NCBI GenBank assembly: GCA_903887775.1
Contig: CAISRB010000011.1
Coordinates: 323,664-387,663 of the forward strand
DNA: 64,000 nt
Direction: 5' to 3'
Source of the DNA: an uncultured Bacteroidales bacterium
Lineage (GTDB): Bacteria; Bacteroidota; Bacteroidia; Bacteroidales; FEN-979
Part shown: positions 1,375 through 53,596 of the stretch, piece after piece
How the letters are laid out: each line of letters opens with the position of its first letter
Numbering within the stretch: the stretch's first letter is position 1
Translations under genes and position numbers: made by a program
Notes under the pieces: generated by a model
Seen by the model: the letters and a program-made list of their open reading frames with translations, nothing else
The model's database searches: none
What the model was told of the DNA's origin: nothing

Positions 1375-2694
1375 TCAGGACCGGGTTGGTGCTTTCCTTT
1401 TATCGATAAATTTAATGGCTTTGCGGCCGCCTTCCGGGAACTGGACTTTATGTACTTCCTCAGGTTTCAGAAACCGTATTTGGGGAGCCACTCTGAGCCT
1501 GGCCCTGAAATGGTCTTTGATATCCTTTTCAAGTTCAGAGTTTACCTGGTTCAGGCCTGCATTGATAATTATTTCATCAGTCCCGATAGAGTTGGTATAT
1601 ACTTCAACATAATAATTCCTGATATACGGGATGTTATCAAGGATATCATACAGTGCCGGAGGGTACAAGGTCGTTCCCTTGAATTTGATCATCTGTTTTT
1701 TACGTCCGATGACCGGCCCAAGCCTCATTGATGTCCTGCCGCAGGAACAGGGTTTGTTGTAATGGATGCAAACATCTCCTGTCTTGAATCGCAAAAGCGG
1801 CATTCCTTCAACTCCCAGGGTTGTAATCGTTACTTCACCAGGCTGTCCTTCACTGACAGGCTTATTATTATCATCGAGGAATTCAACAATAATAAGTTCA
1901 GGATGATGATGCCCTCCGGTACCTTCACTGCATTCTGTAAATGTTGTAGCCATTTCGGTAGAGGCGTACGTAGAATAAAGCCTGATCGGCCATTTTTCCC
2001 GGATTTTCCTTCCGAGGGCATTCAGGCTCAGATCAGGATTCCTGAGAGGCTCACCTATGCAGACTGCCTTAGTGATGCTCGAAGAACGATAGTCAATGCC
2101 ATGCAGTTCGGCATATTCAATGATCTTAAGAATAAAGGATGGTACAACGATGATGGCATTTGGTTGAAACCTGCTGATCGAATCCCACTGCAGTTCAGGG
2201 ATACCGTTGCCCACCCTGATGATCGACGCTCCCAGCATCCTGATACCTAAAAAATAGGCCATGCCCGCCATAAACCGTCGGTCCAGTGTCGTCATTAACT
2301 GGTAGATGTCATCCACCGAACCATCAGCGCATGTAAAAGAAATGGCTTCGTTGTATGCAAGGCGGTCAAGGTCACTGTTGGTCATTGCCACAGTAACCGG
2401 GTCACCCATTGTACCTGAAGTTGTTATATAGTCGACGATCCTGTTCCCTGGTACGCAAATAAAATCCTGGTTAAACTTTTGAAGGTGAGCCTTGTCTGTT
2501 ACCGGTATATGTGCCAGATCCTCCAGATAAAGAATCTTGCTGACATCAACGGAGTATTCTCTGAAAAGCCTCTTGTAATAAGCTGAATTGGATTCTAAAT
2601 ACAACAATAAGTTTCTCAGTGCTGCTTCCTGGAACTTCTTGATCTCCCCCTCGGATTTACGTTCAATCTCAGGGAAAAAGGATTTATCCATCAA
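1375..2694 (-). CDS. PaaK-like adenylate-forming ligase
   Basis: 439 residues, the usual size of phenylacetate-CoA ligase-type enzymes, which activate a carboxylate with ATP to an acyl-adenylate and pass it to CoA or a carrier protein. The phosphate-binding loop TTSGTMGDP lies at 91-99, a YASTEM motif near 242, the C-x-C-G-R cluster typical of PaaK relatives near 317, and a C-terminal GRKAIKF lysine region. It is the last gene of the minus-strand cluster, 14 bases downstream of an outer-membrane protein gene. In this context it could load the aryl starter (4-coumarate from the ammonia-lyase) or a fatty acid onto a carrier protein. That substrate assignment is inference; the enzyme class is well supported. 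Confidence 0.85.
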   Translation of the reverse strand: MMDKSFFPEIERKSEGEIKKFQEAALRNLLLYLESNSAYYKRLFREYSVDVSKILYLEDLAHIPVTDKAHLQKFNQDFICVPGNRIVDYITTSGTMGDPVTVAMTNSDLDRLAYNEAISFTCADGSVDDIYQLMTTLDRRFMAGMAYFLGIRMLGASIIRVGNGIPELQWDSISRFQPNAIIVVPSFILKIIEYAELHGIDYRSSSITKAVCIGEPLRNPDLSLNALGRKIREKWPIRLYSTYASTEMATTFTECSEGTGGHHHPELIIVEFLDDNNKPVSEGQPGEVTITTLGVEGMPLLRFKTGDVCIHYNKPCSCGRTSMRLGPVIGRKKQMIKFKGTTLYPPALYDILDNIPYIRNYYVEVYTNSIGTDEIIINAGLNQVNSELEKDIKDHFRARLRVAPQIRFLKPEEVHKVQFPEGGRKAIKFIDKRKAPTRS

Positions 2695-2708
2695 TTTTGC
2701 TATATGAA

Positions 2709-3398
2709 CTAGAATTTAAATCCTATAAGAACCCGGTATGTAGAATTATCAACCAGGCATTTCAGGCTGTTGTCATTATTATAAGTATAGTTGACTTTAC
2801 CCCAGTTATACTGGAAACCAAACATTATCACCCTGTACCTGATCCCAAAGCTTACCTCATTTAATGCGAGATTCATTCCCCACATATTATTGAACCATGC
2901 TGCTGTTGCATTGATCTTGTATGAAAGATCAATCATCAGGTAGTCGACAGGATTGATGGTGAAAATAGGACCAAATTTCTGACCTGCGAAATAATACCAG
3001 TATTGGAGTTTTTTTGTAGATGAGGAACCTGATGCAAGGTTCTGATCCGAGGGATTGAATGACATGGCCAGAAAGGTCGCATCCAAACCGGCTCTCAGGT
3101 GATTTTTTGCGAAAGCGGGGCCAAGATAAATAATGTAGCCAAGCTCAAAAACACCACCAAACTTTCCACGGTTGAATGCTATTGTATCGGTTTTTCCCTG
3201 GTCATTATATAACTGCTGGTTAGCAAACTCGCCCATCGGAAAAGAACCTCCCAGTTTGATATAAAAACCGCTTTTAATATGGTTTTGATGTGTCGGTTGC
3301 CGGGATTGGACTTGCTGCTGCTGAGGAGGTTGTTCCTGCGAATAGGACAATGTGCTGACAATAGTAAAACATACAAGGGTCAGAAAAAAATTTTTCAT
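2709..3398 (-). CDS. Outer-membrane beta-barrel-like protein
   Basis: 229 residues with a signal peptide (MKNFFLTLVCFTIVSTLSYSQ, cleaved before EQ), then a Gln-rich linker. Alternating hydrophobic and aromatic strands follow, such as GFYIKLGGSFPMGEF, GGVFELGYIIYLG and FGIRYRVIMFGFQYNWG, and the C-terminus ends in Phe (VLIGFKF), as barrel proteins do. It has its own -7-like promoter boxes upstream. No enzymatic motif is visible. Its position between the ligase and the sulfotransferase suggests a role in placing or stabilising the product at the outer membrane, but that is only context. Confidence 0.7.
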   Translation of the reverse strand: MKNFFLTLVCFTIVSTLSYSQEQPPQQQQVQSRQPTHQNHIKSGFYIKLGGSFPMGEFANQQLYNDQGKTDTIAFNRGKFGGVFELGYIIYLGPAFAKNHLRAGLDATFLAMSFNPSDQNLASGSSSTKKLQYWYYFAGQKFGPIFTINPVDYLMIDLSYKINATAAWFNNMWGMNLALNEVSFGIRYRVIMFGFQYNWGKVNYTYNNDNSLKCLVDNSTYRVLIGFKF

Positions 3399-3440
3399 AA
3401 AAACGGGTTTACCTTTCGATTAAAATTCCTGTTACTTTCA

Positions 3441-3456
3441 CAAAGATACAAAGGTA
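3441..3456 (-). promoter_or_regulatory. Two adjacent Bacteroidota -7-like boxes
   Basis: Read on the minus strand, TACCTTTG (3456-3449) is directly followed by TATCTTTG (3448-3441), both matching TAnnTTTG. They lie 43-58 bases before the start of the barrel-protein gene. No convincing -33 TTG box was seen at the right spacing. Confidence 0.4.
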
Positions 3457-4539
3457 TCAGGAATAAGAATATTTTCTCATATAGTCATTTAATTCTGACT
3501 CTATAACTTCCTTATCACTATCCGAAAGGAGGAATTTGTTTTTGGCAAAGTTCCGGTTAATAGCCATGAATTCCTTGATCCTGATTTCAATGCCCTCAGG
3601 AAAATCGAGCTTTAATACAGCATATAATTTTCTTAATGTATTTACTGGATCATGTTCGAGGTCTTCAAACCTGGTCTCAGCAAATGATCCTTCCGGTAAT
3701 GCAGCGGTGCCGGCGCTGATATTCTCCGATATAAGATTCATAACCCTGCAGGTCTCTGCAATTCCGTGCTTATGCAGCTCATTGTTAAGCGCATTCTCCC
3801 TCTGCAGGATATCCCACATGTTTATCGTTGAGGGAACCACCGAAAAGGGATGCCGGTGGATCTGAATAAACCTGGCTTTTGGAAAAGTCTCCATCAGCAT
3901 TCTGATCCTGAATGAATGAAATGGGTTTTTTGACAGGATAGTTCCATTCCGATGGTAATTGATTTTAGTAAAAAAAAATTTAAGCTGTGTTTTGATTTGT
4001 TCTTCGGTTTTGGATAAGGTTTTGCATTCTGCAAATTTCTCCAGGAAATATTCTTCCCTGCAGGGAAATACCAGTTGTTCGAGAGGTGAACAAGCGGTCA
4101 GCCGGAATACAGCATATTCGTCTTCCTGAGGTTCATCCATGCCTATCCTGACATTATCCATAGGCCTGGTTTCCCCGACCAGGGTTTTCATTACAGGTTT
4201 ATAATAAGCATGGGATGTGAGCATGCTGTCAGGCTCAGCTACCTGGAAAAGGGTAGGAGCTGTAAACTGCTCATCAAGGCTCATCAGTTTAAACAGCAAA
4301 CTGGTTCCTGTACGCCAGTGGCCAATAATGAAGACCGGGTCATCAGGACATGGCATAACCTTAATAAGCTTGCCGTAACGGAATTTCTCAACTGTAGCAA
4401 AAATGCTTGACCAGACCGAACTTTGCAATAAAAAAAGTATTCGGCCGGAAGTCTTTAAATTCCAGCTGATGTTATTTCGTGAAAGGACTCTGATCAGCCT
4501 GCCGAACGTCATCCCGGCAGTAAGATAGGAATGCTTCAA
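3457..4539 (-). CDS. Sulfotransferase family protein
   Basis: 360 residues. The 5'-phosphosulfate-binding loop of PAPS-dependent sulfotransferases is clear: FIIGHWRTGTSLL around 70-82. The 3'-phosphate-binding element FIQIHRHPFSVVPST follows in the middle of the protein. Long members of this group (Sulfotransfer_3) transfer sulfate from PAPS to a hydroxyl or amine. It lies 11 bases downstream of an acyl-carrier-protein gene. It could sulfate the aryl hydroxyl or head group of the pigment, or a lipid that carries it. No PAPS-synthesis genes are present, so the donor must come from elsewhere in the genome. The family call is firm; the acceptor is unknown. Confidence 0.85.
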   Translation of the reverse strand: MKHSYLTAGMTFGRLIRVLSRNNISWNLKTSGRILFLLQSSVWSSIFATVEKFRYGKLIKVMPCPDDPVFIIGHWRTGTSLLFKLMSLDEQFTAPTLFQVAEPDSMLTSHAYYKPVMKTLVGETRPMDNVRIGMDEPQEDEYAVFRLTACSPLEQLVFPCREEYFLEKFAECKTLSKTEEQIKTQLKFFFTKINYHRNGTILSKNPFHSFRIRMLMETFPKARFIQIHRHPFSVVPSTINMWDILQRENALNNELHKHGIAETCRVMNLISENISAGTAALPEGSFAETRFEDLEHDPVNTLRKLYAVLKLDFPEGIEIRIKEFMAINRNFAKNKFLLSDSDKEVIESELNDYMRKYSYS

Positions 4540-4550
4540 GAATTATATTA

Positions 4551-4835
4551 TTAAGATTGCTTTCCCTGCTCTGAAACAAGGAATTCAGCAATTGTGTTAA
4601 TGGAGACGATGACCGAACGTGCAAGGTTCTGGTCAGCAATCCTCAGATTATATTTGCGCTGTATTGCCATAATGATCTCCAGGGCGTCGACAGAATCCAG
4701 AGTAAGTGTATTCTCACCGCTAAACAAGGGTTTGTCATTGTCGATCTCACCAGGTTTAATCTCTGTTATTTGAAGTGTCTCCAAAATAAGATTTTTAATC
4801 TCAGTTCTAAGTTCTTCCGTCGGTATCTGGTTCAT
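4551..4835 (-). CDS. Acyl carrier protein
   Basis: 94 residues with the phosphopantetheine site in TLDSVDALE (Ser48) and the expected helical pattern. Acidic, with a slightly long N-terminus. One of four carrier proteins in the cluster. It is 10 bases downstream of a BtrH-like acyl-ACP transferase gene, so the two are probably partners: BtrH in butirosin synthesis takes its acyl group from a carrier protein. It may hold a finished or special acyl group rather than the growing chain; that is inference from position. Confidence 0.9.
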   Translation of the reverse strand: MNQIPTEELRTEIKNLILETLQITEIKPGEIDNDKPLFSGENTLTLDSVDALEIIMAIQRKYNLRIADQNLARSVIVSINTIAEFLVSEQGKQS

Positions 4836-4845
4836 TGATGTTGAT

Positions 4846-5853
4846 TTATTTTATCGTTTTTGATAGTCGTTTAAAAAAATCCTCTTCCTTATCGGCCCTC
4901 TGGTAAATGAGGCTGCTCATCTGTTTAAATTTTTCAGGGCCAAGGTCGCGGTTTTTTCCGATTCTGGCAGCAAAAAGCGAAAATTCCCGCCAGCCGTCAC
5001 CTATTTCCATGAGTTCTTTTGCAAACTCCCTGAGTTCGGGTTTATCGATAATTTCCGAGGCCTGCTGAAGAAATGTCGCGTACATAAAACGGAATCCTGC
5101 TCCGCCGGTTCCCTGGTCCTCTAAAAGGATGTTGATCTTCATGACTTCATGCGACAGGTGTTCGGTATCTCTCGCCATCGCAGGCCAATCGGTTATTTTT
5201 TTAGCAAACATCCTCATGCCCTTGATGCCAAGGAAGGGGATAGGAATTTTTAACATGTAAAAGCATGCCTTTTTGATCCCCTTACGGATTGCCTTTTCGT
5301 AATCGAAGGTCTCAGGAACATATCTTGGATAAAAAATAAATCCCCTGGGTGACATATTTCCATGAGCAAACCGGGCATTGTTCATAGATTTCACAGGCAG
5401 GTCGACAGGCTGAGGAAAATAGCTGTCGCTTACCTTGTATACATCGTTCTCCTTTCCGATGACAACCAGAAAATGTACATTGATGTGAACACGTTCCCAG
5501 GAAGGCACATAATCAAGGTAAAAAAAATCTACCTGAGTTGCAGCGGGAACCCCTTTCGAAATAAGAAGGTCCAGTGCTTCCTGACCGGATCCCTGGTCTT
5601 TGAAGTCCCTGGTATTAAACCTCACCCCTGTCCTTTTTTCCAGGTTTTTCCTCATTTGCCCCGGTTTATTCCTCACGATGAACGTTGGGAATGTAAAGGA
5701 TTTCATGTTGTGGAAATAACCGAAGAAAATTCCGGAGGAGATACCAAACACCATAGGCTCGGTAATCTTAAGACCGGCATGGTTAAGTAAAGAAGTAATC
5801 GAACCCGACTCGCAGTGGGCCGCCATTTTATGATGATAATTCTCAATGATCAT
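4846..5853 (-). CDS. BtrH-like papain-fold acyltransferase (copy A)
   Basis: 335 residues. The N-terminal half fits the BtrH_N family: Cys14 in AAHCESGS, His127 in VHFLVVIG and Asp143 in VSDSYF form a plausible Cys-His-Asp triad. The C-terminal half is helical with a GTGGAGFRFMY motif shared with copy B at 43715-44740. BtrH moves an acyl group from a carrier protein to an amine; here the likely donor is the adjacent ACP. The gene overlaps the HTH-like gene upstream by 11 bases. Together with the ABC permease they form a module that is repeated elsewhere in this cluster. Acyl donor and acceptor are unknown. Confidence 0.8.
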   Translation of the reverse strand: MIIENYHHKMAAHCESGSITSLLNHAGLKITEPMVFGISSGIFFGYFHNMKSFTFPTFIVRNKPGQMRKNLEKRTGVRFNTRDFKDQGSGQEALDLLISKGVPAATQVDFFYLDYVPSWERVHINVHFLVVIGKENDVYKVSDSYFPQPVDLPVKSMNNARFAHGNMSPRGFIFYPRYVPETFDYEKAIRKGIKKACFYMLKIPIPFLGIKGMRMFAKKITDWPAMARDTEHLSHEVMKINILLEDQGTGGAGFRFMYATFLQQASEIIDKPELREFAKELMEIGDGWREFSLFAARIGKNRDLGPEKFKQMSSLIYQRADKEEDFFKRLSKTIK

Positions 5854-6253
5854 TATCCTGTTTTCTGTTTTCTGACTGCTTTCTCACAATTTCTTCGACC
5901 GGAACATTAAAAACCATAGAATATTTCTTTAGTGCAGATTCACTGATCCTTGAAAAGTTCCCGGCTTTCAGGTGCTTTCTCACATTCCACTTCAGTATGC
6001 CTGTTCGTGCAGCAAGCTCTGAAAAAGAAAGGTCTTCCATTACCATAAAATACCCGATGGCATTGATCTCACCTTTTTCAATCTTCTCTCCGAGCATTTT
6101 TTCAAGATTTTTTCTCTTTAGGAAAAAATCGTCAAGATAATTAGCCGAAAGATACGATCCGGTTTGTATGGCTTCATACTTCCCGTCTTCCTTTTCGACA
6201 TATAGTATTACCTGCTGCTCAGGGCATTCTGAATATCCATCCTTCTCTTTCAT
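5843..6253 (-). CDS. Small HTH-like protein paired with BtrH-like gene (copy A)
   Basis: 136 residues. The C-terminal half resembles a Cro/XRE-type helix-turn-helix: LSFSELAARTGILKWNVRKH, then a helix ending KKYSMVFNVPVEEI. The protein at 44751-45155 has the same size, the same layout and a similar tail (A-K-Y-A-E-A-F-N-I-T-I-D-Q-L), and also sits directly upstream of a BtrH-like gene, so the two are paralogues. It may be a regulator, or an HTH-like protein-binding adaptor for its BtrH partner. I do not recognise a named family. Confidence 0.65.
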   Translation of the reverse strand: MKEKDGYSECPEQQVILYVEKEDGKYEAIQTGSYLSANYLDDFFLKRKNLEKMLGEKIEKGEINAIGYFMVMEDLSFSELAARTGILKWNVRKHLKAGNFSRISESALKKYSMVFNVPVEEIVRKQSENRKQDNDH

Positions 6254-6266: not shown

Positions 6267-7463
6267 CTAGAACTTGGTTTTTCTTACTGCAAAAATATAA
6301 ATGCTGGTGATCATTGCAAAAATGAAAAAGGTAAAGAGGAGCAGGCTCCTCGGTAAAATATCAATAATGCCGCCCCCGCGGATAAAAACATCCAGGTAGT
6401 TATCGATTCCCCAGCGCATAGGGGATATCACACTTATCATTTGTATTGCTCTTGGCATCACATGAACGGGAAGGAAGGTCCCGCTGATCACACCAAGAAG
6501 CACGACCATCACGGATCCGAACAGAGATGCCTGGGCCATGGTTCCGGCCGCAGAACCGACCAGAATACCAAAGCCAATAGCTGCCAGTGAAGAAGCAGTT
6601 GTTGCAAAAAGAATTGCCGGTCCATTGTTTCCAACCTGCAATGGGGGCATCTGAAGTAAGTTCGGGAATATCCACAGACCGACCAGCATCATCAGGAGAA
6701 ACTGGATCATGCATACTATAAAATATACTAAGACCTTAGAACCCAGGATGACTCCATATCCCACGGGAAGTGTGTGCAGCCTTTGAAAAGCACCTTCGTT
6801 TTTTTCGCTGATAATACTTGCGGCAAGTGGTATCACAATGAAAAACATGGCAAATAAAATGAAGCCCGGAACTATGTTTTGAATAGCGGTAGGTTTAATT
6901 TCCCGGAGTTCAGATCCGGCAAAGGATTCCCGGACCACTGGCAATTTGCCGGTGGATTCTTCAATTGCTTTATCTATCAGGGGTTTCATATCGCCGGCCG
7001 AGACTGCCAGCATTTCTTCTATCATATAACTGGTCTGCGTTCCCCTTACAAGATACTTAAGTGGAGTGACCAGGTTTGAACGATAAGGCCCTGAAAGAGC
7101 CGGGTCGGAAATAATTTCGATGGCCGAATCACCCGGACCTATATACAAGCCGGCAGAGTATTTTCCTGTGCTGATGATTGCCGCAGCTTGTCTTTTTGTT
7201 ACAGCTTTACCTTCAGCCAGGGTATCTGTATCGAAAAAACCGCTTGACAGAAGGTTCTTATGCAATGAATTTGAGAAGCCTGTATGACTGTCGTCAATAA
7301 ACAGCAGCCTGGTTTTTCCCATTTCGTTTCTAAGGGTGAATTCCTGGGCCATAATAACCACGGTCATCAGCAAAACAGGCATAAGAAAGAGTATAAGAAG
7401 GCCGGGAACATCCCGCACAATAAGGAGCACCTCTTTTTTTGCTGAAAAAAACAGTTTATTCAT
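6267..7463 (-). CDS. ABC-2 type transporter permease (copy A)
   Basis: 398 residues in the classic ABC-2/YhhJ layout: one N-terminal membrane helix (DVPGLLILFLMPVLLMTVVIMA), a soluble domain of about 180 residues, then five or six C-terminal membrane helices containing FVIPLAASIISEKNEGAFQRL and a conserved GTFLPVHVMP turn. It belongs to an exporter but has no ATPase gene beside it. The only ATPase in the window is at 42963-43715 next to permease copy B, so copies A and B may form a heterodimer with one ATPase type. It is 13 bases upstream of the HTH-like gene of the same module. Confidence 0.85.
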   Translation of the reverse strand: MNKLFFSAKKEVLLIVRDVPGLLILFLMPVLLMTVVIMAQEFTLRNEMGKTRLLFIDDSHTGFSNSLHKNLLSSGFFDTDTLAEGKAVTKRQAAAIISTGKYSAGLYIGPGDSAIEIISDPALSGPYRSNLVTPLKYLVRGTQTSYMIEEMLAVSAGDMKPLIDKAIEESTGKLPVVRESFAGSELREIKPTAIQNIVPGFILFAMFFIVIPLAASIISEKNEGAFQRLHTLPVGYGVILGSKVLVYFIVCMIQFLLMMLVGLWIFPNLLQMPPLQVGNNGPAILFATTASSLAAIGFGILVGSAAGTMAQASLFGSVMVVLLGVISGTFLPVHVMPRAIQMISVISPMRWGIDNYLDVFIRGGGIIDILPRSLLLFTFFIFAMITSIYIFAVRKTKF

Positions 7464-8569: not shown

Positions 8570-8579
8570 TGTTGTGATG

Positions 8580-45194: not shown

Positions 45195-45605
45195 TTACTT
45201 TTCAAGAAATATCCTGAGCTCGCATTCAGCAATCAGTTCATCATGCAATATGATCTGCCCTGCAACCACTGTGGCATTAAGGATCTCATGCGTGACTGTC
45301 ACCGTGGTTCTGATCTCATCTCCTGATTTCGGAAGTTTGAAGATCTTCAGTTCCCTGATAGCTCCTATAAATCCCGTTTTAGGCTCTTCATCCGCATTGA
45401 GGGTCACAGATGCTATGCCTGCTGCCGCACTTTGTGCAATATTTTCAATCAGTCCGGGTTCCCTGAAGAATCCATCCTCAAGAAAAACATTGTCATCCCT
45501 GATCAGAAAAGTGGTGACAGTTTTCTTGCCGATGATCCCAATGATGCGGTCGACCATCACCATGGGTGGCTTCTGAGGGATATTTATTTCTTTAAATGAT
45601 GCCAT
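45195..45605 (-). CDS. Hot-dog fold 3-hydroxyacyl-ACP dehydratase-like (ApeP/ApeI type)
   Basis: 136 residues. IPQKPPMVMVDRI at 9-21 and FLEDGFFREPGLIENIAQSAA (Glu54) are typical of the second dehydratase family of aryl polyene clusters. The FabZ H-F-P-G motif is absent. It probably works with the FabZ-like protein at 31948-32361 to make the alternating double bonds. The gene overlaps the acyltransferase-radical SAM fusion gene by 22 bases. Confidence 0.82.
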   Translation of the reverse strand: MASFKEINIPQKPPMVMVDRIIGIIGKKTVTTFLIRDDNVFLEDGFFREPGLIENIAQSAAAGIASVTLNADEEPKTGFIGAIRELKIFKLPKSGDEIRTTVTVTHEILNATVVAGQIILHDELIAECELRIFLEK

Positions 45606-47914
45606 AGTGATCCTTTACGGTTTCTGCTTCTCATGCGGTTCATCGATGTTGACACATCCTCATCGGCGAAAACCCAGCGACGCCCGGTCTTTTCAGCTCT
45701 TTCCTTCAGGGTTGCATAATTTACCGACTGTGAAAGATAAAATACGGGTGCGATGATGGGATCATCGGGAGCGATCAGCCCTTCTGCAATGCTGATTTCG
45801 TGCAGTTTTGTCCCGGGGTAGATCCGCATTCCCACATATGGAAAAAATACAGTGTTTTCAATGCGCTTTGAGTTCTCAAAGCTTTCATTTACAGTCTGGT
45901 CGGTTTCACCGTATCCGCCAATGATCATAAAATGGCAGAAATAAACATTTGATTCGTTGCAGTAATCAGACACTCTGACCACTTCATCCACATCAAAGTG
46001 CTTGCCATAAGCCTTGAGGGTGGTATCCGACAGGGATTCCGTGCCAAATTCAATATGGGTAAGGCCGGCCTTTGCAAACAGCCGAAGCACGTCCCTCGAA
46101 AGATTATAAGGCGAGAAATAGGCTCCCCACTTAATCTTCATGTTCGATTTGATGATCTTTTCGGCAAGCTCAATATTGAAATTATTGCTGATATTGAAAA
46201 CCGAGTCGGTGAAAAAGTAATAATCTATATTATGGTGATAGTACAGGTCGCGCAGTGTGTGAAGGATGCGGTCAGGATCAAGATTCCTCACGTTATGCCC
46301 TTCGATAAGGGGATAGGTGCAATAAATACAATTGAACGGGCATCCGCGTTTCGTCTGAATATTGATCATCCCGCTTTTCTGCCAGTAATACTGCACCATG
46401 GCCGGGTCAAATGACAGTTCTGGTGTTTTAATGAACATATCACGGCCGTTCAGCTTTGTCACTCCATCTTTTCTCCAGACAAGCCCCTGGATGCCCAGGT
46501 CAGGAATACCCGTCTCAAGTGATTTTAAAAGCCTGTACAGACTTTCTTCACCCTCGCCTGTAATTCCAAAATCAGGTTGTAAAAGTTCAAACAATTCCGT
46601 TGGATAAATAGAAAATGCGGATCCTCCAATGATAAAAGTTGTAAGAATTCCGGATCCTTTTATAATATCGGCAATTGCTTTGTACCCTGCCACGAAGCTT
46701 TCCTTCGTATAGAAATTGACATCATCGATATTTCTCAGTGAAAGTCCGGTATAATCGGGTTTGTAAGAAATCAGGAGGTTTTTAAGGTCATCATTTCCGT
46801 TAAGATTAGAATCAAATGAAAGGATGTCGAGATCAGGCAATCGCTCACTCAGGTATGAGTATAGGTATGAAAGGCCAAGTGGATAAACCGGGTATGGGTT
46901 TGCATACCGGTTAGCGGATATCAGAAGGAGTTTCCTGTTCCTTTTTTTTTTGATTTCTGTATTATCGCCTTTCGGATTTCCTAAAGGAAGATTAGGATCC
47001 CGCGCCACTGGCTGCTGGTGCGCAATATCGGGCAGCTTCCAGAAATCATAGTAGTTAAACCATTGTAAAGGATATTTATATACCACCGTCTCAAAAGCAT
47101 CTGCAAATTTTATCACTGCAGACGCCAGGATTGCATCCCTTTTCTTCAGGTTATTTGAAAATTCTATATACTGAAGAGGGGTCGAATAAAAATGGTAATG
47201 TGTATTGGTTTCCTTGACTGCAAAAACATAGGCGGCAGGTACATTGAATCTTGCAGCAAGGTTTACAGGGCCTATTGGGAAAGCCGCATTTTTACCAAGG
47301 AATTCAGTGACAACGGTCTTATTTCCTTCGATATAACGATCGCCATGCATGGCAATGATCTCACCTCTTGAGAAAGCTTCCTTGATCTCCTGAAGATGTG
47401 AATAATCTTCCCTGATAATTATAAAGTGAACGTTTCGCTGAAGCACATCCGCCAGGTAACCCTTAATCTTCTGATGTTCTGCATCATACATCAGGATGTT
47501 GATCTTTTTTTCAAGTCTTACAAGAAGTTGCCCGGCAATTTCCCAGTTGCCTGCATGGCCGCTGATCAGCAATCCCCCCTTATCCATCTGACGAAGGTAT
47601 TCCTCTCCTTCAAAATCAAACGTGAACTTATGCTGAAAACCTGCAAGCAATGCAAGTTTATCGACCAGGATCTGGCCAAAAACATAATAATTCCTGTAAA
47701 TGCTGATGAGGGATTTCAGCTTACCGTAGTTCATCCTCTCATGAAAGTACCGGTAAACTGCCCTGAAGGCTTTGCCTGAGGTAAAGATGAAATACGATAC
47801 AACGAAAACTAGCAGAAAATAGGCAAAGGAAATGCCAAAGTTCCTGAGTGTCCAGACAAAAATTTTATAACCAAGGACTCCTCCGCGGGTTTTACCTTCC
47901 CAGGATTCCATCAC
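45584..47914 (-). CDS. LpxL-like acyltransferase fused to radical SAM/B12-type protein
   Basis: 776 residues. Residues 1 to about 295 are an LpxL/HtrB-type lysophospholipid acyltransferase: a membrane helix near 28-48, His120...Glu125 in SGHAGNWEIAG (H-x4-E, normal for LpxL) and GDRYIEGNKTVVTEFLGK. After a polar linker (300-325) a complete B12-type radical SAM protein follows, with Cys525, Cys529 and Cys532 in KRGCPFNCIYC. This half is a paralogue of the protein at 22412-23836. Stand-alone LpxL-like acyltransferases occur in aryl polyene clusters; the fusion ties a radical modification to acyl transfer at the membrane. The frame is open with no sign of a sequencing join. Confidence 0.9.
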   Translation of the reverse strand: MMESWEGKTRGGVLGYKIFVWTLRNFGISFAYFLLVFVVSYFIFTSGKAFRAVYRYFHERMNYGKLKSLISIYRNYYVFGQILVDKLALLAGFQHKFTFDFEGEEYLRQMDKGGLLISGHAGNWEIAGQLLVRLEKKINILMYDAEHQKIKGYLADVLQRNVHFIIIREDYSHLQEIKEAFSRGEIIAMHGDRYIEGNKTVVTEFLGKNAAFPIGPVNLAARFNVPAAYVFAVKETNTHYHFYSTPLQYIEFSNNLKKRDAILASAVIKFADAFETVVYKYPLQWFNYYDFWKLPDIAHQQPVARDPNLPLGNPKGDNTEIKKKRNRKLLLISANRYANPYPVYPLGLSYLYSYLSERLPDLDILSFDSNLNGNDDLKNLLISYKPDYTGLSLRNIDDVNFYTKESFVAGYKAIADIIKGSGILTTFIIGGSAFSIYPTELFELLQPDFGITGEGEESLYRLLKSLETGIPDLGIQGLVWRKDGVTKLNGRDMFIKTPELSFDPAMVQYYWQKSGMINIQTKRGCPFNCIYCTYPLIEGHNVRNLDPDRILHTLRDLYYHHNIDYYFFTDSVFNISNNFNIELAEKIIKSNMKIKWGAYFSPYNLSRDVLRLFAKAGLTHIEFGTESLSDTTLKAYGKHFDVDEVVRVSDYCNESNVYFCHFMIIGGYGETDQTVNESFENSKRIENTVFFPYVGMRIYPGTKLHEISIAEGLIAPDDPIIAPVFYLSQSVNYATLKERAEKTGRRWVFADEDVSTSMNRMRSRNRKGSLWHHLKK

Positions 47915-47916: not shown

Positions 47917-48165
47917 CTAATTTGAACGGACACGGTTAATGATATAGTCGTAAAAGTCCTGCAAACTCTTAATATCAGCCATTTCTTCAGCTTTCATTTT
48001 CACTCCGAAGTTACGTTCGATTATGACAAACAGATCAACAAAGTCAAGGCTGTCAATTTCAAGATCTTTCTTAAGATCAGCATTGGGGTTGATTTTTTCT
48101 TCCTCAATCTCTATTTCATCCACCAGTAACTGATTTATCTTAGAGATAATCTCGTCGTTTCGCAT
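47917..48165 (-). CDS. Acyl carrier protein
   Basis: 82 residues with Ser39 in LEIDSLDFVDL, the standard FAS-type ACP site. Two bases upstream of the acyltransferase-radical SAM fusion gene, suggesting it delivers an acyl group to that protein. It has a candidate promoter box of its own. Confidence 0.92.
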   Translation of the reverse strand: MRNDEIISKINQLLVDEIEIEEEKINPNADLKKDLEIDSLDFVDLFVIIERNFGVKMKAEEMADIKSLQDFYDYIINRVRSN

Positions 48166-48211: not shown

Positions 48212-49435
48212 TCAGAAAGAGGCCTTCTTAACGACGAGTGAGGAATTTGTTCCCCCGAACCCAAAAGAATTTGACAGGAAAGCATTGATCTCATGCGGGA
48301 TTGTTGCAGTTGCAAGGTTAAGGCATGAGGTGGCTTCATCAGGGTTTTCAAAGTTTATATTTGGCGCCACAAAGTTATTATGCATCATTAATGTGGAATA
48401 AATGATCTCACTTGCTCCTCCCATCCACATTTCATGCCCTGTCATCGATTTTGTGCTGCTGACAAGGGGCATTTCTTTTCCGAAGATCTGGTAAATTGCA
48501 AGGGCTTCATTACCATCGCCTGCAGGTGTTGAGGTGGCATGGGCATTAATGTAGTCAATGTCCTTAGGGCTTATCCCTGCAGCTTTAAGCGACATCTGCA
48601 TGGCCCTGGCGGGGCCTTCAACATTTGGCAGGGATATATGTTCTCCGTTCGAAGAGAAGCCGTACCCCACAACCTCTGCAAGTATTGTGGCACCCCGCTT
48701 TTTTGCCGATTCGTAGCTTTCAAGTATCACTGTTGCTGCGCCGCCGCTTGGCACCAGCCCGTCGCGGTCGCGGTCGAACGGCCTTGATGCTTTCGTGGGT
48801 TCTGATTCGCGGACCGAGAAAGCATTCAAGGCATCAAAACTGGCGGTAGACTCCGGGTTGATCTCCTGAGCGCCTCCACAAATAATGACATCCTGCAAAC
48901 CCTGTTTTATCAGGAGGTATCCAATCCCGATCGCATGTGAACCGCTGGCACAGGCGCCGCTCACGGTGAAATTGATGCCCTTAAGCTTAAAGATCACCGA
49001 CAGGTTCATCGAAACGGTTGAGTTCATAGACTGGAATATGTATCCGGAACCTATGAGCATCGTGTCTTTTTTCTTTCGGAGAATGTCAACGGACTCTACG
49101 ACAGGAACCGCGGAGCTGTCATTTCCGTACAGGATCCCGGCTTCGTGCTGATCAAGAAACTTCTGGTCAATACCTGAGTTCTTCAACGCTTCAACTGTAG
49201 CCATATAGGCATATTCTGCCTGTACAGGCATGCCGACGCGCATGCGGCGGTCAAGAATACCTTTAAGAGCGGGGCGTTCAACCATTCCTGTAAGTGCTGA
49301 CCGGAATCCCAGTTCTTTCCGGCTCGCATCAAAAATAATCCCGGACCTTCCATGCCATAACGAGTCTTTTACATCGGCAAGGTTCCTGCCAATGACAGAG
49401 TAGATGCCCATTCCGGTGATGACGACGCGGGTCAT
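48212..49435 (-). CDS. Beta-ketoacyl-ACP synthase, FabF type, behind a repeat tract
   Basis: 407 residues from the Met at 49435 (MTRVVITGMGIYSVIG), the normal KS start. The frame stays open 50 codons upstream, but that stretch only translates the 21-bp repeat as copies of LFAFRFS and is not real coding sequence. Catalytic residues: Cys162 in VSGACASGSHA, His in NAHATSTPAGD (the motif is H-A-T-S-T) and His in GHEMWMGGAS. The C-terminus NSFGFGGTNSSL is standard. It lies just downstream of FabG and the ammonia-lyase, so it may do the first elongation of the aryl starter. Confidence 0.9.
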   Translation of the reverse strand: MTRVVITGMGIYSVIGRNLADVKDSLWHGRSGIIFDASRKELGFRSALTGMVERPALKGILDRRMRVGMPVQAEYAYMATVEALKNSGIDQKFLDQHEAGILYGNDSSAVPVVESVDILRKKKDTMLIGSGYIFQSMNSTVSMNLSVIFKLKGINFTVSGACASGSHAIGIGYLLIKQGLQDVIICGGAQEINPESTASFDALNAFSVRESEPTKASRPFDRDRDGLVPSGGAATVILESYESAKKRGATILAEVVGYGFSSNGEHISLPNVEGPARAMQMSLKAAGISPKDIDYINAHATSTPAGDGNEALAIYQIFGKEMPLVSSTKSMTGHEMWMGGASEIIYSTLMMHNNFVAPNINFENPDEATSCLNLATATIPHEINAFLSNSFGFGGTNSSLVVKKASF

Positions 49436-49439
49436 AGTT

Positions 49440-49544
49440 GAAAAGCGAAAAGCGAAAAGTGAAAAGCGAAAGGCGAAAAGTGAGAAGCGAAAGGCGAAAA
49501 GTGAAAAGCGAAAGGCGAAAAGTGAGAAGCGAAAGGCGAAAAGC
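49440..49544. repeat. Heptanucleotide tandem repeat, 15 units (5 x 21 bp)
   Basis: Fifteen uninterrupted 7-base units, GAAAAGC with variants GAAAAGT, GAAAGGC and GAGAAGC, ordered as five 21-base super-units. It ends 4 bases before the ketosynthase start codon, so on the coding strand a pyrimidine-rich GCTTTTC run occupies the ribosome-binding region. Gain or loss of units would change the leader by 7 bases. The rest of the 188-base gap, 49545-49623, shows no other signal. Confidence 0.9.
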
Positions 49545-49623
49545 GTTTTGGAAAGCCAAAATGAGCAAGCAAATGAAATAAACAATAGCTGCGAATAGAA
49601 GCGAAATTAATCATATCCAGGCT

Positions 49624-50352
49624 TTATGTGTATAAACCGCCATTGACGTTGATTACCGAGCCGGTAATGTATGAGGCTTCGTCGGATGCGAGGAAACGCA
49701 CAGCTGCCGCAACTTCTTCCGGTTTTCCAAACCGGCCCATCGGGATCATCATTTTAAGCTGGCCTTCATCAAGATCTTTCGTCATATCAGTCCTGATGAA
49801 ACCAGGTGCCACTGCGTTCACGGTCACATTCTTTTTTGCAATCTCCTGCGCCAGGGCCTTCGTTGCTGCAATAACCCCACCTTTCGCGGCAGAATAGTTG
49901 GCCTGGCCCGGAAGCCCTTTTATACCGCTAAGGGAGACTACGTTGATGATCCTTCCGAACTTGTTCACCAGCATGTCTTTAATCAGAAACCTCGTGATAT
50001 AGAAGAAACTGTTCAGGTTTGTATTCAGAACATCATGCCATTCCTCGTTTTTCATCCACATCACAAGTGCATCTTTCCTGATGCCTGCATTATTTACAAG
50101 CACATGAATGTATTTGCCTTCATTCCGTTCCTGCCAGGCCTGAAGGGCCTTGTCAGCTGCTTCCTGGCTTGCAACGTCGAACTGCATGATTTCACCGCTG
50201 CCCCCGTTTTCACTGACCATGGCCAGAGTGCGTTCAGCTTCTTCAGTATTTGAATTGTAATTGATGATGACGTAAAAACCATCTTTTGCCAGGCTTGTAC
50301 AGATAGCCCGTCCGATTCCCCGGGATCCGCCAGTCACTAATGCATATCTCAT
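49624..50352 (-). CDS. fabG: 3-oxoacyl-ACP reductase (FabG-type SDR)
   Basis: 242 residues, typical FabG. NADPH-binding TGGSRGIGRAI near the N-terminus, NNAG at 87-90, and the catalytic Ser140, Tyr153 and Lys157 (ANYSAAKGG). The tail YITGSVINVNGGLYT is standard. It reduces the beta-keto groups during polyene synthesis. It is the only ketoreductase in the cluster, so it must serve all KS systems unless the primary FabG helps. Located 27 bases downstream of the ammonia-lyase gene. Confidence 0.93.
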   Translation of the reverse strand: MRYALVTGGSRGIGRAICTSLAKDGFYVIINYNSNTEEAERTLAMVSENGGSGEIMQFDVASQEAADKALQAWQERNEGKYIHVLVNNAGIRKDALVMWMKNEEWHDVLNTNLNSFFYITRFLIKDMLVNKFGRIINVVSLSGIKGLPGQANYSAAKGGVIAATKALAQEIAKKNVTVNAVAPGFIRTDMTKDLDEGQLKMMIPMGRFGKPEEVAAAVRFLASDEASYITGSVINVNGGLYT

Positions 50353-50379: not shown

Positions 50380-51933
50380 TTATTCTTCGACGGAAAACTG
50401 AGGTTTGTTCTCCATAATGTACTGTTCAATATTCCAGATATCCTTATACTTGCTGGTATCCTCGGTGAAAACCGGGACTATTTTCCTGAGGTCTTCATAT
50501 TTGCTCCTCGAATATGAAGAAAGTTTATCCTTTATATTCAGATAATCTATTGCCTGCAATATGGATATCATTTCGATGGCAATCACCTGATAGGTATTAT
50601 CAATTACCTTCATCGTAATTAAAGCTGCGTTGGTTCCCATGCTTACAATATCCTGGTTGTCGTTATTATTTGTGATACTGTGCAACGACATCGGGTAGGA
50701 GAGGGTTTGGTTTTCAGCAACAGTCGAAACGGCCGTAAACTGTGCGCCCTGCATGCCAAGGTTCAGGCCCAGTTTTCCCAGGTTAACAAACGGTGGCAAT
50801 TTCTCATTCAGTTTCGGGTTCATCAGGTAATTCAGCTGACGCTCGGCAAGCATCGACAATTTTGTTATTGCGATCTTCAGTTTGTCCATTTCAAGAGCAA
50901 CATAATCTCCATGAAAATTCCCTCCATGATACACATTATGGTGTTCTCCGTCAATAATAGGGTTATCACTGGTTGAATTCACTTCATTCATGAGGATATG
51001 GGTGGCATAAAGGATCGTATCCTGAACCGGGCCAATGACCTGGGGAACACAGCGAAGGGAATAATATTCCTGGACCTTATGTTTGAACACTTCGACCTCT
51101 ACAGCCTTGTCATCATTATAAAGATGATCGGCACGCCGGCGGATCAACTGGCTGTCTTTGAGGATATACTTCATCGTCCTGGCAACAACTCTCTGGCCAT
51201 GATGGGTCTTCGCACGGTTGAGCCCGTCAGAAAAATGATCATCATAGGACTCCACGATCTCAGTAATCATCGATGATGCGAGGATGGCCCAGTCAGCAAG
51301 GTTCCTGGCATGGATCACATTGATCATTCCTATGCCTGTCATTGCTGATGTACCGTTAATGAGTCCAAGTCCCTCGCGGATATGCATTGAAATAGGAGTA
51401 AGGCCTTCAGCTTTAAAGACATCTGCAGCTGGAAGTGTTTGCCCTTTGTACAAAACATCACCTTCTCCTATAAGATTAAGGGCCAGGTGGGCAAGCTGAA
51501 CAAGATCGCCGCTGGCGCCAACACCTCCATGTTCAGGAATATATGGGTTGACATCGCGGTTAATGAATTCCTTTAAAAGGTCAACAACCTCGATATGGAT
51601 ACCCGACTTGGCCTGGACCAGCGAGCTCACCCTTGCGAGCATAGTGGCTTTGGCATAGAGAGGTGGGAGAGGAGAACCGCATCCTGCAGCGTGACTGCGG
51701 ATAAGGTTGTACTGTAGTTCAAGCTCTCTGTTGCCATTGATCTTAAACTGGGCCATTGGCCCAAGACCGGTATTAATTCCGTAAATAACTTTTCCCTTGG
51801 CAAATTCTTTCAGAAACTCATAATCTTCTTCAACTTTGCGGCGTGCTTCTATATCGATATCGATTTTCTCACCCTCAAAAAGGACTTTAAAGAAATCATT
51901 GACCGTAAGTTTCCTGCTTCCGACTGTAATCAT
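50380..51933 (-). CDS. Aromatic amino acid ammonia-lyase, probably tyrosine ammonia-lyase
   Basis: 517 residues. The MIO-forming Ala140-Ser141-Gly142 is in HGGVGASGDLVQLAHLAL, the catalytic Tyr51 in IYGINTGLGPMAQ, and YHGGNFHGDYVALEMDK is present. The blocks LQYNLIRSH, HGGVGASGDLVQL, QEYYSLRCVPQ and TNNNDNQDIVSMGTN match, from memory, the characterised F. johnsoniae tyrosine ammonia-lyase far better than histidine ammonia-lyases. The substrate-selectivity pair is Ser80-His81. It converts tyrosine to 4-coumarate, the starter of flexirubin and aryl polyene pigments. First gene of the minus-strand cluster, with a good promoter box upstream. Confidence 0.9.
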   Translation of the reverse strand: MITVGSRKLTVNDFFKVLFEGEKIDIDIEARRKVEEDYEFLKEFAKGKVIYGINTGLGPMAQFKINGNRELELQYNLIRSHAAGCGSPLPPLYAKATMLARVSSLVQAKSGIHIEVVDLLKEFINRDVNPYIPEHGGVGASGDLVQLAHLALNLIGEGDVLYKGQTLPAADVFKAEGLTPISMHIREGLGLINGTSAMTGIGMINVIHARNLADWAILASSMITEIVESYDDHFSDGLNRAKTHHGQRVVARTMKYILKDSQLIRRRADHLYNDDKAVEVEVFKHKVQEYYSLRCVPQVIGPVQDTILYATHILMNEVNSTSDNPIIDGEHHNVYHGGNFHGDYVALEMDKLKIAITKLSMLAERQLNYLMNPKLNEKLPPFVNLGKLGLNLGMQGAQFTAVSTVAENQTLSYPMSLHSITNNNDNQDIVSMGTNAALITMKVIDNTYQVIAIEMISILQAIDYLNIKDKLSSYSRSKYEDLRKIVPVFTEDTSKYKDIWNIEQYIMENKPQFSVEE

Positions 51934-51992: not shown

Positions 51993-52000
51993 CAAAGGTA
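51993..52000 (-). promoter_or_regulatory. Candidate -7 box of the main cluster promoter
   Basis: TACCTTTG on the minus strand (52000-51993), followed by CACC, about 60 bases upstream of the ammonia-lyase start. A TTG lies about 25 bases further upstream, a little too far for an ideal -33 element. The 124-base divergent gap 51934-52057 is the most likely start of the long minus-strand transcript. Confidence 0.5.
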
Positions 52001-52032
52001 ATTTTTTTTACATTAGCGGGACATCAATTTCT

Positions 52033-52040
52033 TACTTTTG
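52033..52040 (+). promoter_or_regulatory. Candidate -7 box for the CrtI-like gene
   Basis: TACTTTTG at 52033-52040, 17 bases before the ATG at 52058. With the minus-strand box at 51993-52000 it makes a compact divergent promoter region. No clear -33 box. Confidence 0.4.
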
Positions 52041-52057
52041 ATACATAGTATAATAAA

Positions 52058-53596
52058 ATGGAAGTCAGCATTATCGGAGCGGGAGTGTCAGGGTTGATTG
52101 CAGGGTGCTATCTGCAGATGAGCGGTTTCCATTCTAAAATTTTTGAACGTCATACAAGTTCAGGAGGACTTTGCACCAGCTGGAAGAAAAACAAATATAC
52201 GTTTGAAAGCGGCTTTCAATGGCTTCTGGGATCCGGGCCTGCAAATCCATTTTACGAATTGTGGTCAGAATTACTGGATATGCAATCCATTCCGTTCATC
52301 ACTCATGAAAGCAGGATGGATATTGAAGTAAAGCATTCCTGCAGTCCTGGCGGAGACAACGTTTTCCACCTTTACACGAATCTCAGCAAACTCAGGAATT
52401 ATCTTATTGAAAATTCCCCTGATGATGAACGCGTCATCAATAAACTCATCCGTTCCATACGTCAGATACAATCCTTTGAGATACCGCCAATGATCAAAAA
52501 GGTGCCCGGGATATTGCCCCTGAAAGAAAAGATAGTGTATATCCGTTTCCTTCCGTTACTCTGGTTCCTGAATAAACTGAAAAAGGAGACCAATTATTCT
52601 TTTGCGAAGAAACTGAAAAGCCCGTTTCTAAGGGAAGCATTTGAATTACTGTTCGATGGCGATGAGTTGCCTTTGATGATCATAACCATGCCACTGGCCT
52701 ATGGTGATCTTAAGGCTGCGGCCTATCCCGTAGGCGGTGCAAGTGTTTTTACAAGCAGGTTATTGCAAAAGTACCTTTCACTGGGCGGCCGGGTTCAATA
52801 TCAGTCTCCGGTCAGAAATATCTTGCTGCAGGACAATCACGCAACCGGAATCCAGCTTGAAAACGGGGACAAGATACTCTCAGATCTTGTGCTGTCGGCC
52901 GCCGACTGGCATTTTACCGTATTTCAGGCGCTGGGTGGCAGGTATGTCGACAAAACAATCCTCGAGCTGGGAAGTCAGAAGAAATTAGAAGTATACTATT
53001 CACTTTTCATCGTTTCTTTGGGAGTAGGAAGGAGTTTCGAAGGAGAACCTCACTTCCTCAGGTTCCCCCTGGATCAGGACCTGGTCTCACCTGATCATAC
53101 AAAATATTCCCGGCTTGAAGCTCATATTTACAATTATGATCCGACCCTGGCACCTTCAGGAAAAACGGTTGTTTCAATCAGCTTCTATACCCGCAATGCT
53201 GATTTCTGGATCAATCTCAGGGAATCAAACAGGGAAGAGTATGATAAAAGTAAAAGGGAATTTGCCACAGAGGTAATAGATATCATCGAAAAGAAGTTCG
53301 GGAGGATAAAGGAATTCATTGAAGAGACAGATATTGCGACACCTGCGACATTTTACCGGTATACCAATAGCTGGAAGGGATCGGCTCAGGGCTGGCTTCC
53401 CGGGAAAAATCTGATTGCCCGCTCACCTGTTGAATTTACACTTCCGGGGCTTAAAAATTTCTATTATTCGGGCCACTGGTGTATTCCCGGCGGCGGATTA
53501 CCCGTTGCGTTAAAATCGGCCAGGGACGTTGTACAGACCATTTGCCATCAAACAGGGGTAAAGTTTGGGGTTGATCAACAGGCAGTTACCGGCTAA
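52058..53596 (+). CDS. CrtI/carotene-isomerase-like FAD-dependent oxidoreductase
   Basis: 512 residues. N-terminal MEVSIIGAGVSGLIAGCYL and FERHTSSGGLCTSW give the FAD-binding fold of the phytoene desaturase family. The C-terminal FYYSGHWCIPGGGLPVA is its second FAD motif. Distinct from the member at 14416-15915 (differing motifs and C-terminus). It could desaturate or isomerise the polyene chain. Divergent from the ammonia-lyase gene and sharing its intergenic promoter region, so it is probably co-regulated. Confidence 0.86.
   Translation: MEVSIIGAGVSGLIAGCYLQMSGFHSKIFERHTSSGGLCTSWKKNKYTFESGFQWLLGSGPANPFYELWSELLDMQSIPFITHESRMDIEVKHSCSPGGDNVFHLYTNLSKLRNYLIENSPDDERVINKLIRSIRQIQSFEIPPMIKKVPGILPLKEKIVYIRFLPLLWFLNKLKKETNYSFAKKLKSPFLREAFELLFDGDELPLMIITMPLAYGDLKAAAYPVGGASVFTSRLLQKYLSLGGRVQYQSPVRNILLQDNHATGIQLENGDKILSDLVLSAADWHFTVFQALGGRYVDKTILELGSQKKLEVYYSLFIVSLGVGRSFEGEPHFLRFPLDQDLVSPDHTKYSRLEAHIYNYDPTLAPSGKTVVSISFYTRNADFWINLRESNREEYDKSKREFATEVIDIIEKKFGRIKEFIEETDIATPATFYRYTNSWKGSAQGWLPGKNLIARSPVEFTLPGLKNFYYSGHWCIPGGGLPVALKSARDVVQTICHQTGVKFGVDQQAVTG

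Follow-up and report, generated by a model that had tools for sequence, protein, structure and literature searches.

A flexirubin-type gene cluster without a recognized DarA and with added ketosynthase and B12 radical SAM genes in an uncultured Bacteroidales bacterium

Gene content of the cluster

We analyzed a 64,000-nucleotide stretch (the window) of contig CAISRB010000011.1, from the uncultured Bacteroidales assembly GCA_903887775.1 (3.83 Mb, 33 contigs, 98% complete), which carries a gene cluster of about 50 kb related to those for flexirubins, aryl polyenes joined to a dialkylresorcinol that serve as chemotaxonomic markers (PMC3992019). Between positions 1375 and 51933 we placed 48 genes, all on the minus strand except rSAM2 and rSAM3; 46 of the 47 intergenic gaps are shorter than 60 bases or are overlaps, with some open reading frame starts in the window set mechanically. 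A preliminary description of this DNA had proposed a pathway of the aryl-polyene/flexirubin type, enlarged by many extra enzymes, nearly all on one strand over 50 kb, and both the protein family models and the comparison with two reference clusters (G214 and G222) agree with it. Every enzyme class that it named was found: ammonia-lyase, FabG, two hot-dog dehydratases, ketosynthases (KS) and chain-length factors (CLF), four acyl carrier proteins (ACPs), thioesterase, MMPL, LolA, and LpxL-like proteins, together with two BtrH-like proteins, two crotonases, a 3-hydroxyacyl-CoA dehydrogenase, an O-methyltransferase, a sulfotransferase, a C45 protein, a deacetylase, and a TonB-type receptor. It had not listed the FlxY ligase (start 1375), a CrtI-like flavoprotein (14416), or a StlD/DarB-like ketosynthase, here called KASIII (29378). 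Gene-by-gene comparison covered 10 clusters (G001, G010, G012, G016, G018, G456, G468, G214, G222, and G158). Because gene order is preserved over the whole length in a congeneric genome (G001) and in a genome of another genus (G010), the cluster is not a chance assemblage; collinearity was also seen in the covered parts of G012, G016, and G018, whose blanks at the FlxY end are stretches outside the fetched region or past contig ends.

Half of the cluster is an ordinary flexirubin set. Curated NCBI models for flexirubin or dialkylresorcinol proteins were passed by FlxA tyrosine ammonia-lyase (50380 to 51933; NF053541, 819 bits, cut-off 700), FlxY acyl-CoA ligase (1375 to 2694; NF053551, 708 bits, cut-off 520), LolA2 (33079 to 33789; NF053544, 205 bits, cut-off 125), LolB2 (32466 to 33101; NF053540, 87.1 bits, cut-off 60), and twice by the BtrH-related acyltransferase DarH (43715 to 44740, 394 bits, and a second copy at 4846 to 5853, 331 bits; NF053550, cut-off 300). 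The core DarG (44751 to 45155) passed the subfamily model (NF053536, 114 bits, cut-off 70) and failed the stricter flexirubin_DarG model (111 versus 170 bits). When the FlxY model was run on 198 genomes of the phylum, 13 were over the cut-off, the host among them. Reference stretches were fetched from seven genomes, six of them FlxY positive and the seventh (G294) taken from a KASIII search of 395 genomes. Complete flexirubin clusters were present in G214 and G222, two genomes of the same class whose clusters are so called by gene content and not by product, and a shorter one was present in G158; G139 had the tyrosine ammonia-lyase and FlxY genes at a contig edge, G294 only a DarB-like gene in its fetched stretch, and G052 and G057 no other core gene in the stretches fetched, which lie on one side of FlxY.

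The G214 and G222 clusters matched 24 and 25, respectively, of the 48 window genes, in nearly the order of the window: FlxY, C45, CrtI, MMPL, GT2, ApeI, LolA, deacetylase, CLF, KS, ACP, short KS, KS, thioesterase, ABC, DarH, DarG, dehydratases, DarB, putative DarA, LpxL, ACP, KS, FabG, and tyrosine ammonia-lyase, with a second CrtI-like gene ahead of LpxL in G214. The KS/CLF, FabG, dehydratase, and ACP genes of the window thus stand in flx order. Since DarH, C45, deacetylase, CrtI, and MMPL are all present in these clusters, we count them as core parts, and LolA is likewise core; DarH (the BtrH-like protein), C45, and the deacetylase had previously been taken for extras and are ordinary members of flexirubin clusters.

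The remaining core genes begin with the C45 autoproteolytic acyltransferase/hydrolase (12699 to 14471; NF040521, 231 bits, cut-off 85), the CrtI/CrtD-like flavoprotein (14416 to 15915; PF13450, PF01593), an MMPL exporter fused to acyltransferase and methyltransferase domains (15912 to 19787; PF03176, PF01553, PF13649), and a GT2-DUF2062 glycosyltransferase (19817 to 21055; PF00535, PF09835); C45 and MMPL were matched in G214, G222, and G158, and CrtI in G214 and G222. An ApeI-like dehydratase (31948 to 32361) just passes PF22818 (29.6 bits, cut-off 28.5), and a protein of the polysaccharide deacetylase family (PF01522) is encoded at 33710 to 34534. Further along are ACP3 (39124 to 39384; PF00550), a truncated KS-like protein of 214 residues (39395 to 40039) that has a weak fabF hit, lacks the catalytic residues, and is present in 10/10 of the clusters compared, KSd (40042 to 41214; PF02801, PF00109), a 4HBT thioesterase (41224 to 41640; PF13279), an ABC-2 permease (41643 to 42944; PF12698), and an ABC ATPase (42963 to 43715; PF00005). 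A FabZ-like dehydratase (45195 to 45605; NCBIfam FabZ 34.9 bits, cut-off 113, no Pfam hit), ACP4 (47917 to 48165; PF00550), KSe (48212 to 49585; PF00109, PF02801), and a FabG-type ketoreductase (49624 to 50352; PF13561) complete the core. In the PDB, ACP3 has 9ls6 as its best chain (66.5 bits; next, 31.7), the best match of the ApeI-like protein is 6qsr, and KSc and KSd match 6qsp, not as the best hit; we take 6qsr and 6qsp to be aryl polyene (APE) proteins.

Several of the added genes duplicate core functions. KSb (35612 to 36823) is 53% identical to KSc (37915 to 39123; both PF00109 and PF02801), and the chain-length-factor-like proteins CLFa (34531 to 35604; PF00109) and CLFb (36873 to 37928) are 46% identical, with Gly/Gly/Lys/Glu and Cys/Gly/Lys/Glu, respectively, at the KS catalytic columns. 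Besides the second DarH there are a second DarG-like gene (5843 to 6253; NF053536, 63.8 bits, under the cut-off of 70), a second ABC-2 permease (6267 to 7463; PF12698, 32% identical to the 41643 gene product), and a related carrier protein, ACP1 (4551 to 4835; PF00550, 37% identical to ACP3).

The second group of additions, which we call the accessory module, lies in the window between GT2 and ApeI. It comprises a FabD/MdcH-like acyltransferase, AT (23876 to 24784; PF00698); ACP2 (24791 to 25099; PF00550); a FabF-like ketosynthase with Cys-His-Lys-His, KSa (25130 to 26353; PF00109); a small heme-binding protein (26363 to 26749; PF14376); the 3-hydroxyacyl-CoA dehydrogenase-type protein, 3HCDH (26785 to 27834; PF02737, PF00725); rSAM4 (27816 to 29360; PF04055, PF02310); KASIII (29378 to 30520); and the crotonases ECH1 (30517 to 31206) and ECH2 (31209 to 31964), both PF00378 and both keeping the two Glu of the crotonase motif. 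No enoyl reductase was recognized in the module. On the opposite strand are rSAM2 (21075 to 22415; PF02310, PF04055), which is HpnR/BchE-like (best NCBIfam model HpnR, 136 bits, cut-off 650), and rSAM3 (22412 to 23836), which is TIGR04072-like (305.5 bits, under the cut-off of 360).

Five radical S-adenosylmethionine (SAM)/B12-type proteins had been claimed, and all five are there, with radical SAM and B12-binding hits and a CxxxCxxC motif; the LpxL-like part and the fifth protein, rSAM5, turned out to be one fused gene (45584 to 47914). One hit in each of two proteins is below its Pfam cut-off: the radical SAM hit of rSAM1 (PF04055, 27.2 versus 29.5 bits; its PF02310 hit is over) and the B12-binding hit of rSAM5 (PF02310, 27.3 versus 32.1 bits; PF03279 and PF04055 are over). 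The rSAM5 part passes TIGR04072, the model named rSAM_ladder_B12 and annotated "lipid biosynthesis" (397.8 bits, or 399.8 bits in the scan of the host's own genome; cut-off 360). In G214, G222, and G158 the match spans only 38 to 45% of the fusion, and in G214 it is a 293-residue LpxL-like open reading frame.

The other additions are rSAM1 (11431 to 12747) with unk128 (10991 to 11377), an orphan protein without Pfam or NCBIfam hit; a sulfotransferase (3457 to 4539; PF13469), also found in G456 and G468; an O-methyltransferase (7478 to 8677; PF00891, PF08100); and a TonB-type receptor (8580 to 10970) with a carboxypeptidase-regulatory domain (PF13715) over the cut-off and a Plug hit below it. 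ARAGORN called a tRNA-Leu on the plus strand at 9975 to 10047, inside the receptor gene and opposite to it, which is probably a false positive. A further gene, unk229 (2709 to 3398), belongs to no family that we found and was matched only in G001 and G010.

Conservation of the additions and apparent lack of the resorcinol half

Within the family members compared, the added block is collinear, and it recurs, rearranged, in other Bacteroidales. The KASIII gene was found in 40 of 43 genomes of the host family, in a few only as pieces at contig ends. Across 395 genomes sampled evenly from the phylum (threshold, 1e-20), the KASIII query matched only the host genome and one DarB-like protein (26% identity), and unk128 was found in the host genome alone. 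A more distant set comprised 26 genomes from 42 rSAM5 loci under 60% identity: KASIII was present at 63 to 72% identity in 15 (three more had only DarB-like proteins near 25%), unk128 in 16, and rSAM1 in 17, at 70 to 76% identity; where matched in the 10-cluster comparison, rSAM1 is 75 to 93% identical. In this set unk128 occurs in 14 of the 15 genomes with KASIII and in 2 of the 11 others (Fisher P = 1.6e-4, not corrected for kinship). Neither unk128 nor rSAM1 was found in G214 and G222, nor was rSAM1, the only one of the two searched there, in G158. Wherever unk128 occurs it adjoins rSAM1 (16/16 genomes, 28 searched). An alignment of 16 of its 17 distinct copies (the remaining copy contains masked letters) has 28 invariant columns, and its AlphaFold2 model (predicted local distance difference test [pLDDT], 86) had no PDB match at an E value of ≤0.001. 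G456 (GWB2_32_14) and G468 share the core of the window, and 15 of the accessory genes flank it there in a different order.

For the neighborhood of rSAM5 we used the best 80 of 276 rSAM5 relatives in our genome collection. An LpxL-like gene lies just upstream of rSAM5 in 67 of the 75 loci with room for it (33/35 plus 34/40), often as a separate gene outside the host genus, and a tyrosine ammonia-lyase gene is nearby in 48 of 60 (27/31 plus 21/29). The closest named relatives among the 80 are metagenome-assembled Bacteroidales or Bacteroidetes, and to judge from isolate names (LacPavin, Loclat, and Alinen, for example) they may come from lake water; a few records carry deviating labels (L060, Alphaproteobacteria; L097, Ignavibacteria; L100, delta proteobacterium). 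In two family members (L065, 12212 to 19785; L067, 13707 to 21353), homologs of C45, CrtI, and MMPL (34 to 47% identity) lie inverted within the core after DarG, as a rearrangement or a second set.

What the family appears to lack is the resorcinol half. DarA had not been recognized in the window from its sequence, and a search with the G214 protein extends this to the family: none of the 43 genomes had a match, and the same query matched 19 of 28 other genomes, including G222 and G467. The host family therefore probably makes no dialkylresorcinol by the DarA route. The G214 DarB passes NF053539 (672 bits, cut-off 550); the window KASIII reaches only 84 bits against that model and 111 against the StlD/DarB model (cut-off 450).

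Although these two are its best NCBIfam models, and StlD is its best neighbor in sequence and in fold (the model has a pLDDT of 70 from eight alignment rows, so that fold scores are indicative), KASIII differs from the StlD/DarB enzymes at the active site: the nucleophile Cys142 is kept, and Asn300 and Tyr333 replace the catalytic His and Asn. The Cys-Asn-Tyr set was read in 24 of 24 distinct orthologs (at least 63% identity). Among nine DarB-like relatives, seven have Cys-His-Asn; for the other two the pairwise alignment has a gap or a shift at the His, and one of these, the G214 DarB, reads PHVSS. In the KASIII superfamily the His/Asn pair is used for decarboxylative condensation, and its loss points to acyl transfer or another condensation by this enzyme.

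The last of the 48 genes is FlxA. The preliminary description had extended the cluster to position 53596; the last gene of that span (52058 to 53596, plus strand; PF01593), encoding a second CrtI-like flavoprotein, was seen beside the cluster only within the genus (G001, L049, L051, L053, L055, and L071), and the fetched stretches of the nine remaining genomes in the 10-cluster comparison had no counterpart. At the other edge, a gene for an exported-looking protein without Pfam hit (g02, 478 to 1116, minus strand), not counted among the 48, has homologs in the stretches of G001, G010, G456, G468, and G214. Past the cluster, after a tRNA-Arg at 53664, an IS21-type transposase (Mu C-terminal/rve) and its IstB helper (54121 to 56443, plus strand) were unmatched in the stretches fetched from relatives. 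They are followed on the minus strand (57372 to 63612) by a Schlafen/AlbA_2 protein with a Fic-like C-terminal domain, an Eco57I-type restriction-methylase of 1,213 residues, and a DUF2726 protein, which look like a defense island beside the insertion element; relatives of the 57372 gene adjoin cluster contigs in G012 (93% on C15, 61% at the end of C31) and occur in L051 (68%).

Proposed pathway and alternatives

We consider it reasonably probable that the cluster encodes an enlarged flexirubin-type pathway to an aryl-polyene lipid, without the dialkylresorcinol and with an acyl-building accessory module. The suspicion that the product may not be a classical flexirubin is supported only for the resorcinol half, given the missing DarA; the polyene half looks classical because FlxA and FlxY pass their flexirubin equivalog cut-offs. 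We infer its route from the literature on homologs, following the proposal for Chitinophaga pinensis, for whose homologs tyrosine ammonia-lyase and 4-coumarate-CoA ligase activities are reported in PMC3992019. FlxA would deaminate tyrosine to 4-coumarate and FlxY would activate it; the type II system of KS/CLF pairs, FabG, FabZ/ApeI dehydratases, and ACPs would then extend it to an aryl polyene, DarH/DarG and the acyltransferases would hand this to a lipid partner, and the MMPL, ABC, and LolA/LolB proteins would carry it outward. The module (AT-ACP2-KSa-3HCDH-KASIII-ECH1-ECH2 with the B12 radical SAM proteins) is probably the source of a second acyl moiety, and here we infer each step, and the product, from gene families: AT may load ACP2, KSa may elongate the chain, and 3HCDH and the crotonases may reduce and dehydrate it, after which the B12 radical SAM proteins could methylate or rearrange the acyl chain, the noncanonical KASIII could join or release it, and DarH/DarG/ACP1 with the sulfotransferase could finish the molecule. 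An unsaturated or hydroxylated acyl chain would be the simplest product of the module, since it has an elongation set in which no enoyl reductase was recognized. With the usual resorcinol genes missing and a conserved block of unusual enzymes in the cluster, the pathway probably leads to an aryl-polyene lipid of a new kind.

Several observations weigh against this interpretation. No curated model identifies DarA, which owes its name here to its position next to DarB and to a flavodoxin-like trace below cut-off; canonical DarB was searched only in the stretches of five family genomes, where the query met only KASIII (22 to 24% identity). All of the related loci examined, the best 80 of 276, are metagenome assembled. 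rSAM3, rSAM4, the heme protein, the second ABC permease (ABCp1), unk229, and one KS/CLF pair were unmatched in the G456 and G468 loci, so not all of the extras form one unit, and 3HCDH and the crotonases could act in another pathway. Finally, DarA is also present in 12 of the 15 genomes with KASIII that lie outside the family, which weakens the idea that the module replaces DarAB; the module is therefore an addition, not merely a replacement. One locus (L110, 3864 to 5963; Bacteroidales M55B132) has rSAM5, DarA, and DarB together at the usual place in a flexirubin cluster, and rSAM5 is therefore compatible with darAB.

The best-surviving alternative is that two independent pathways lie here, a plain aryl-polyene operon and a separate lipid pathway of KASIII, ECH, 3HCDH, and radical SAM proteins, sharing only the export genes. 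The position of the module, between GT2 and ApeI in the window and outside the core in G456 and G468, would fit such a division, as would the 11 of 26 rSAM5 genomes without KASIII at ≥63% identity. We nevertheless consider it unlikely, as, in those family members that were compared, the extras are interspersed among core genes along 50 kb and include second copies of core genes (DarG, DarH, ABC permease, and KS/CLF), and they flank the same core again in a second lineage (G456 and G468).

A β-branching cassette of the hydroxymethylglutaryl (HMG) synthase type acting on the polyene, with AT, a donor ACP, a KS, an HMG synthase-like protein, ECH1, and ECH2, is a good deal harder to accept. The AT-ACP-KS-...-KASIII-ECH-ECH set and order are those of such cassettes. 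However, KASIII is nearest to StlD/DarB, with no Pfam HMG synthase hit at an E value of ≤0.01 and 31.6 bits against an NCBIfam cut-off of 244; KSa retains the active Cys that cassette ketosynthases usually lack; and both crotonases keep the two Glu of their motif, which also argues against this assignment. We regard the cassette as very improbable.

A classical flexirubin whose dialkylresorcinol comes from genes elsewhere in the genome is disfavored and the least probable alternative of all: darAB do lie apart from the flx genes on another contig in G456, about 0.38 Mb away in G468, and in C. pinensis (PMC3992019), but DarA was found in 0/43 host-family genomes with a query that matched 19/28 others. 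A strictly anaerobic version of the flexirubin pathway is likewise weakened, in that a gene of the heme-copper oxidase family (PF00115) is present in 38 of the 43 family genomes, the host's included, so that by gene content these organisms are not strict anaerobes.

Relation to ladderane loci and other known systems

The TIGR04072 hit of rSAM5 raises a further alternative, a ladderane-like pathway in which the polyene is rearranged or cyclized by TIGR04072 radical SAM proteins and CrtI-like flavoproteins. As described in Rattray 2009, the loci of Kuenenia and Desulfotalea contain radical SAM proteins, phytoene-desaturase-like proteins, divergent FabF, a membrane protein, and a ligase, with a deacetylase-like protein in Kuenenia, and these gene types have counterparts in the window. 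Moreover, Kuste3606 and Kuste2805 have Lys328 and Glu333, where Kuste3348 has Asp and Asn (Rattray 2009, Table 2), and the corresponding residues of both CLFa and CLFb are Lys and Glu. The same pair occurs in 33 of 41 scorable distinct CLF sequences, including those of G214, G222, and G158 (7 have Lys/Asp and 1 has Lys/Thr; of 46 distinct sequences, 5 were not covered at a column), so it may simply be widespread among chain-length factors. Ordinary flexirubin clusters likewise contain CrtI, deacetylase, MMPL, ligase, and CLF, and the likeness may therefore mean only common descent from a single kind of lipid cluster; the pathway was not revealed when the Kuenenia genes were expressed in E. coli (PMC4790861). 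A PDB search with the MMPL-fused methyltransferase, the ApeI-like protein, and ACP3 returned no anammox relative recognizable from molecule names. We think a ladderane-like product very doubtful.

What the shared Lys/Glu pair does suggest is that Kuste3606 and Kuste2805 resemble chain-length factors and that the two kinds of loci are related, the anammox side being known here from its published description; this kinship with the anammox ladderane candidate loci is suggestive. A bolder form of it, to which we give little credence, is that a single class of lipid cluster, in which TIGR04072 proteins act on an ACP-held polyene next to an LpxL-type acyltransferase, has the window and the anammox loci as its two branches, and that the Cys-Asn-Tyr KASIII is a new nondecarboxylative joining enzyme; the substrate here being an aryl polyene, methylation or ring closure would then give an aryl lipid that differs from every flexirubin.

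Among known systems, the closest are the flx/dar clusters of bacteria such as C. pinensis and Flavobacterium johnsoniae, with which the window shares FlxA, FlxY, LolA2, LolB2, DarG, and DarH, a likeness drawn from the curated models and the G214 and G222 clusters and not from sequences of these two species. It departs from them in having no DarA/DarB, in the fusion of LpxL to a B12 radical SAM protein, and in its four more radical SAM proteins, second KS/CLF pair, second DarG/DarH/ACP/ABC-permease set, KASIII/ECH/HCDH/KS/AT/ACP module, sulfotransferase, and TonB-type receptor. Unlike the ladderane loci as described by Rattray 2009, it has a tyrosine ammonia-lyase start and DarG/DarH. The FlxA/FlxY start, DarG/DarH, and the accessory genes also separate it from the type II polyketide synthase (PKS) of proteobacterial APEs, whose presumed structures are matched by its ApeI-like dehydratase, KSc, and KSd. 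Celluxanthenes, likewise aryl polyenes of anaerobic bacteria with two KASIII-type enzymes in their cluster, are made, as described in PMC12144888, by an iterative type I PKS with a tetronate and a different gene set.

Flexirubin-type clusters called by antiSMASH have been reported in uncultured Bacteroidales from groundwater bins (PMC5383146), so their occurrence in such organisms is not new. We found no paper pairing flexirubin with radical SAM proteins, in a search that left out subscription journals and is no proof of absence in print. The cluster offers concrete candidate proteins in the LpxL-rSAM5 fusion, the rSAM1-unk128 pair, and the Cys-Asn-Tyr KASIII, and it links a TIGR04072 protein to a pathway for which a starter unit can plausibly be named, something that the anammox loci, as far as Rattray 2009 was consulted, do not provide; if the two are indeed branches of one class, the ladderane question would become open to flexirubin genetics. 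For the biology of the host, the analysis describes an uncultured Bacteroidales family that keeps the polyene genes, without a DarA match in 43 genomes, together with conserved B12 radical SAM proteins and enzymes of the β-oxidation type.

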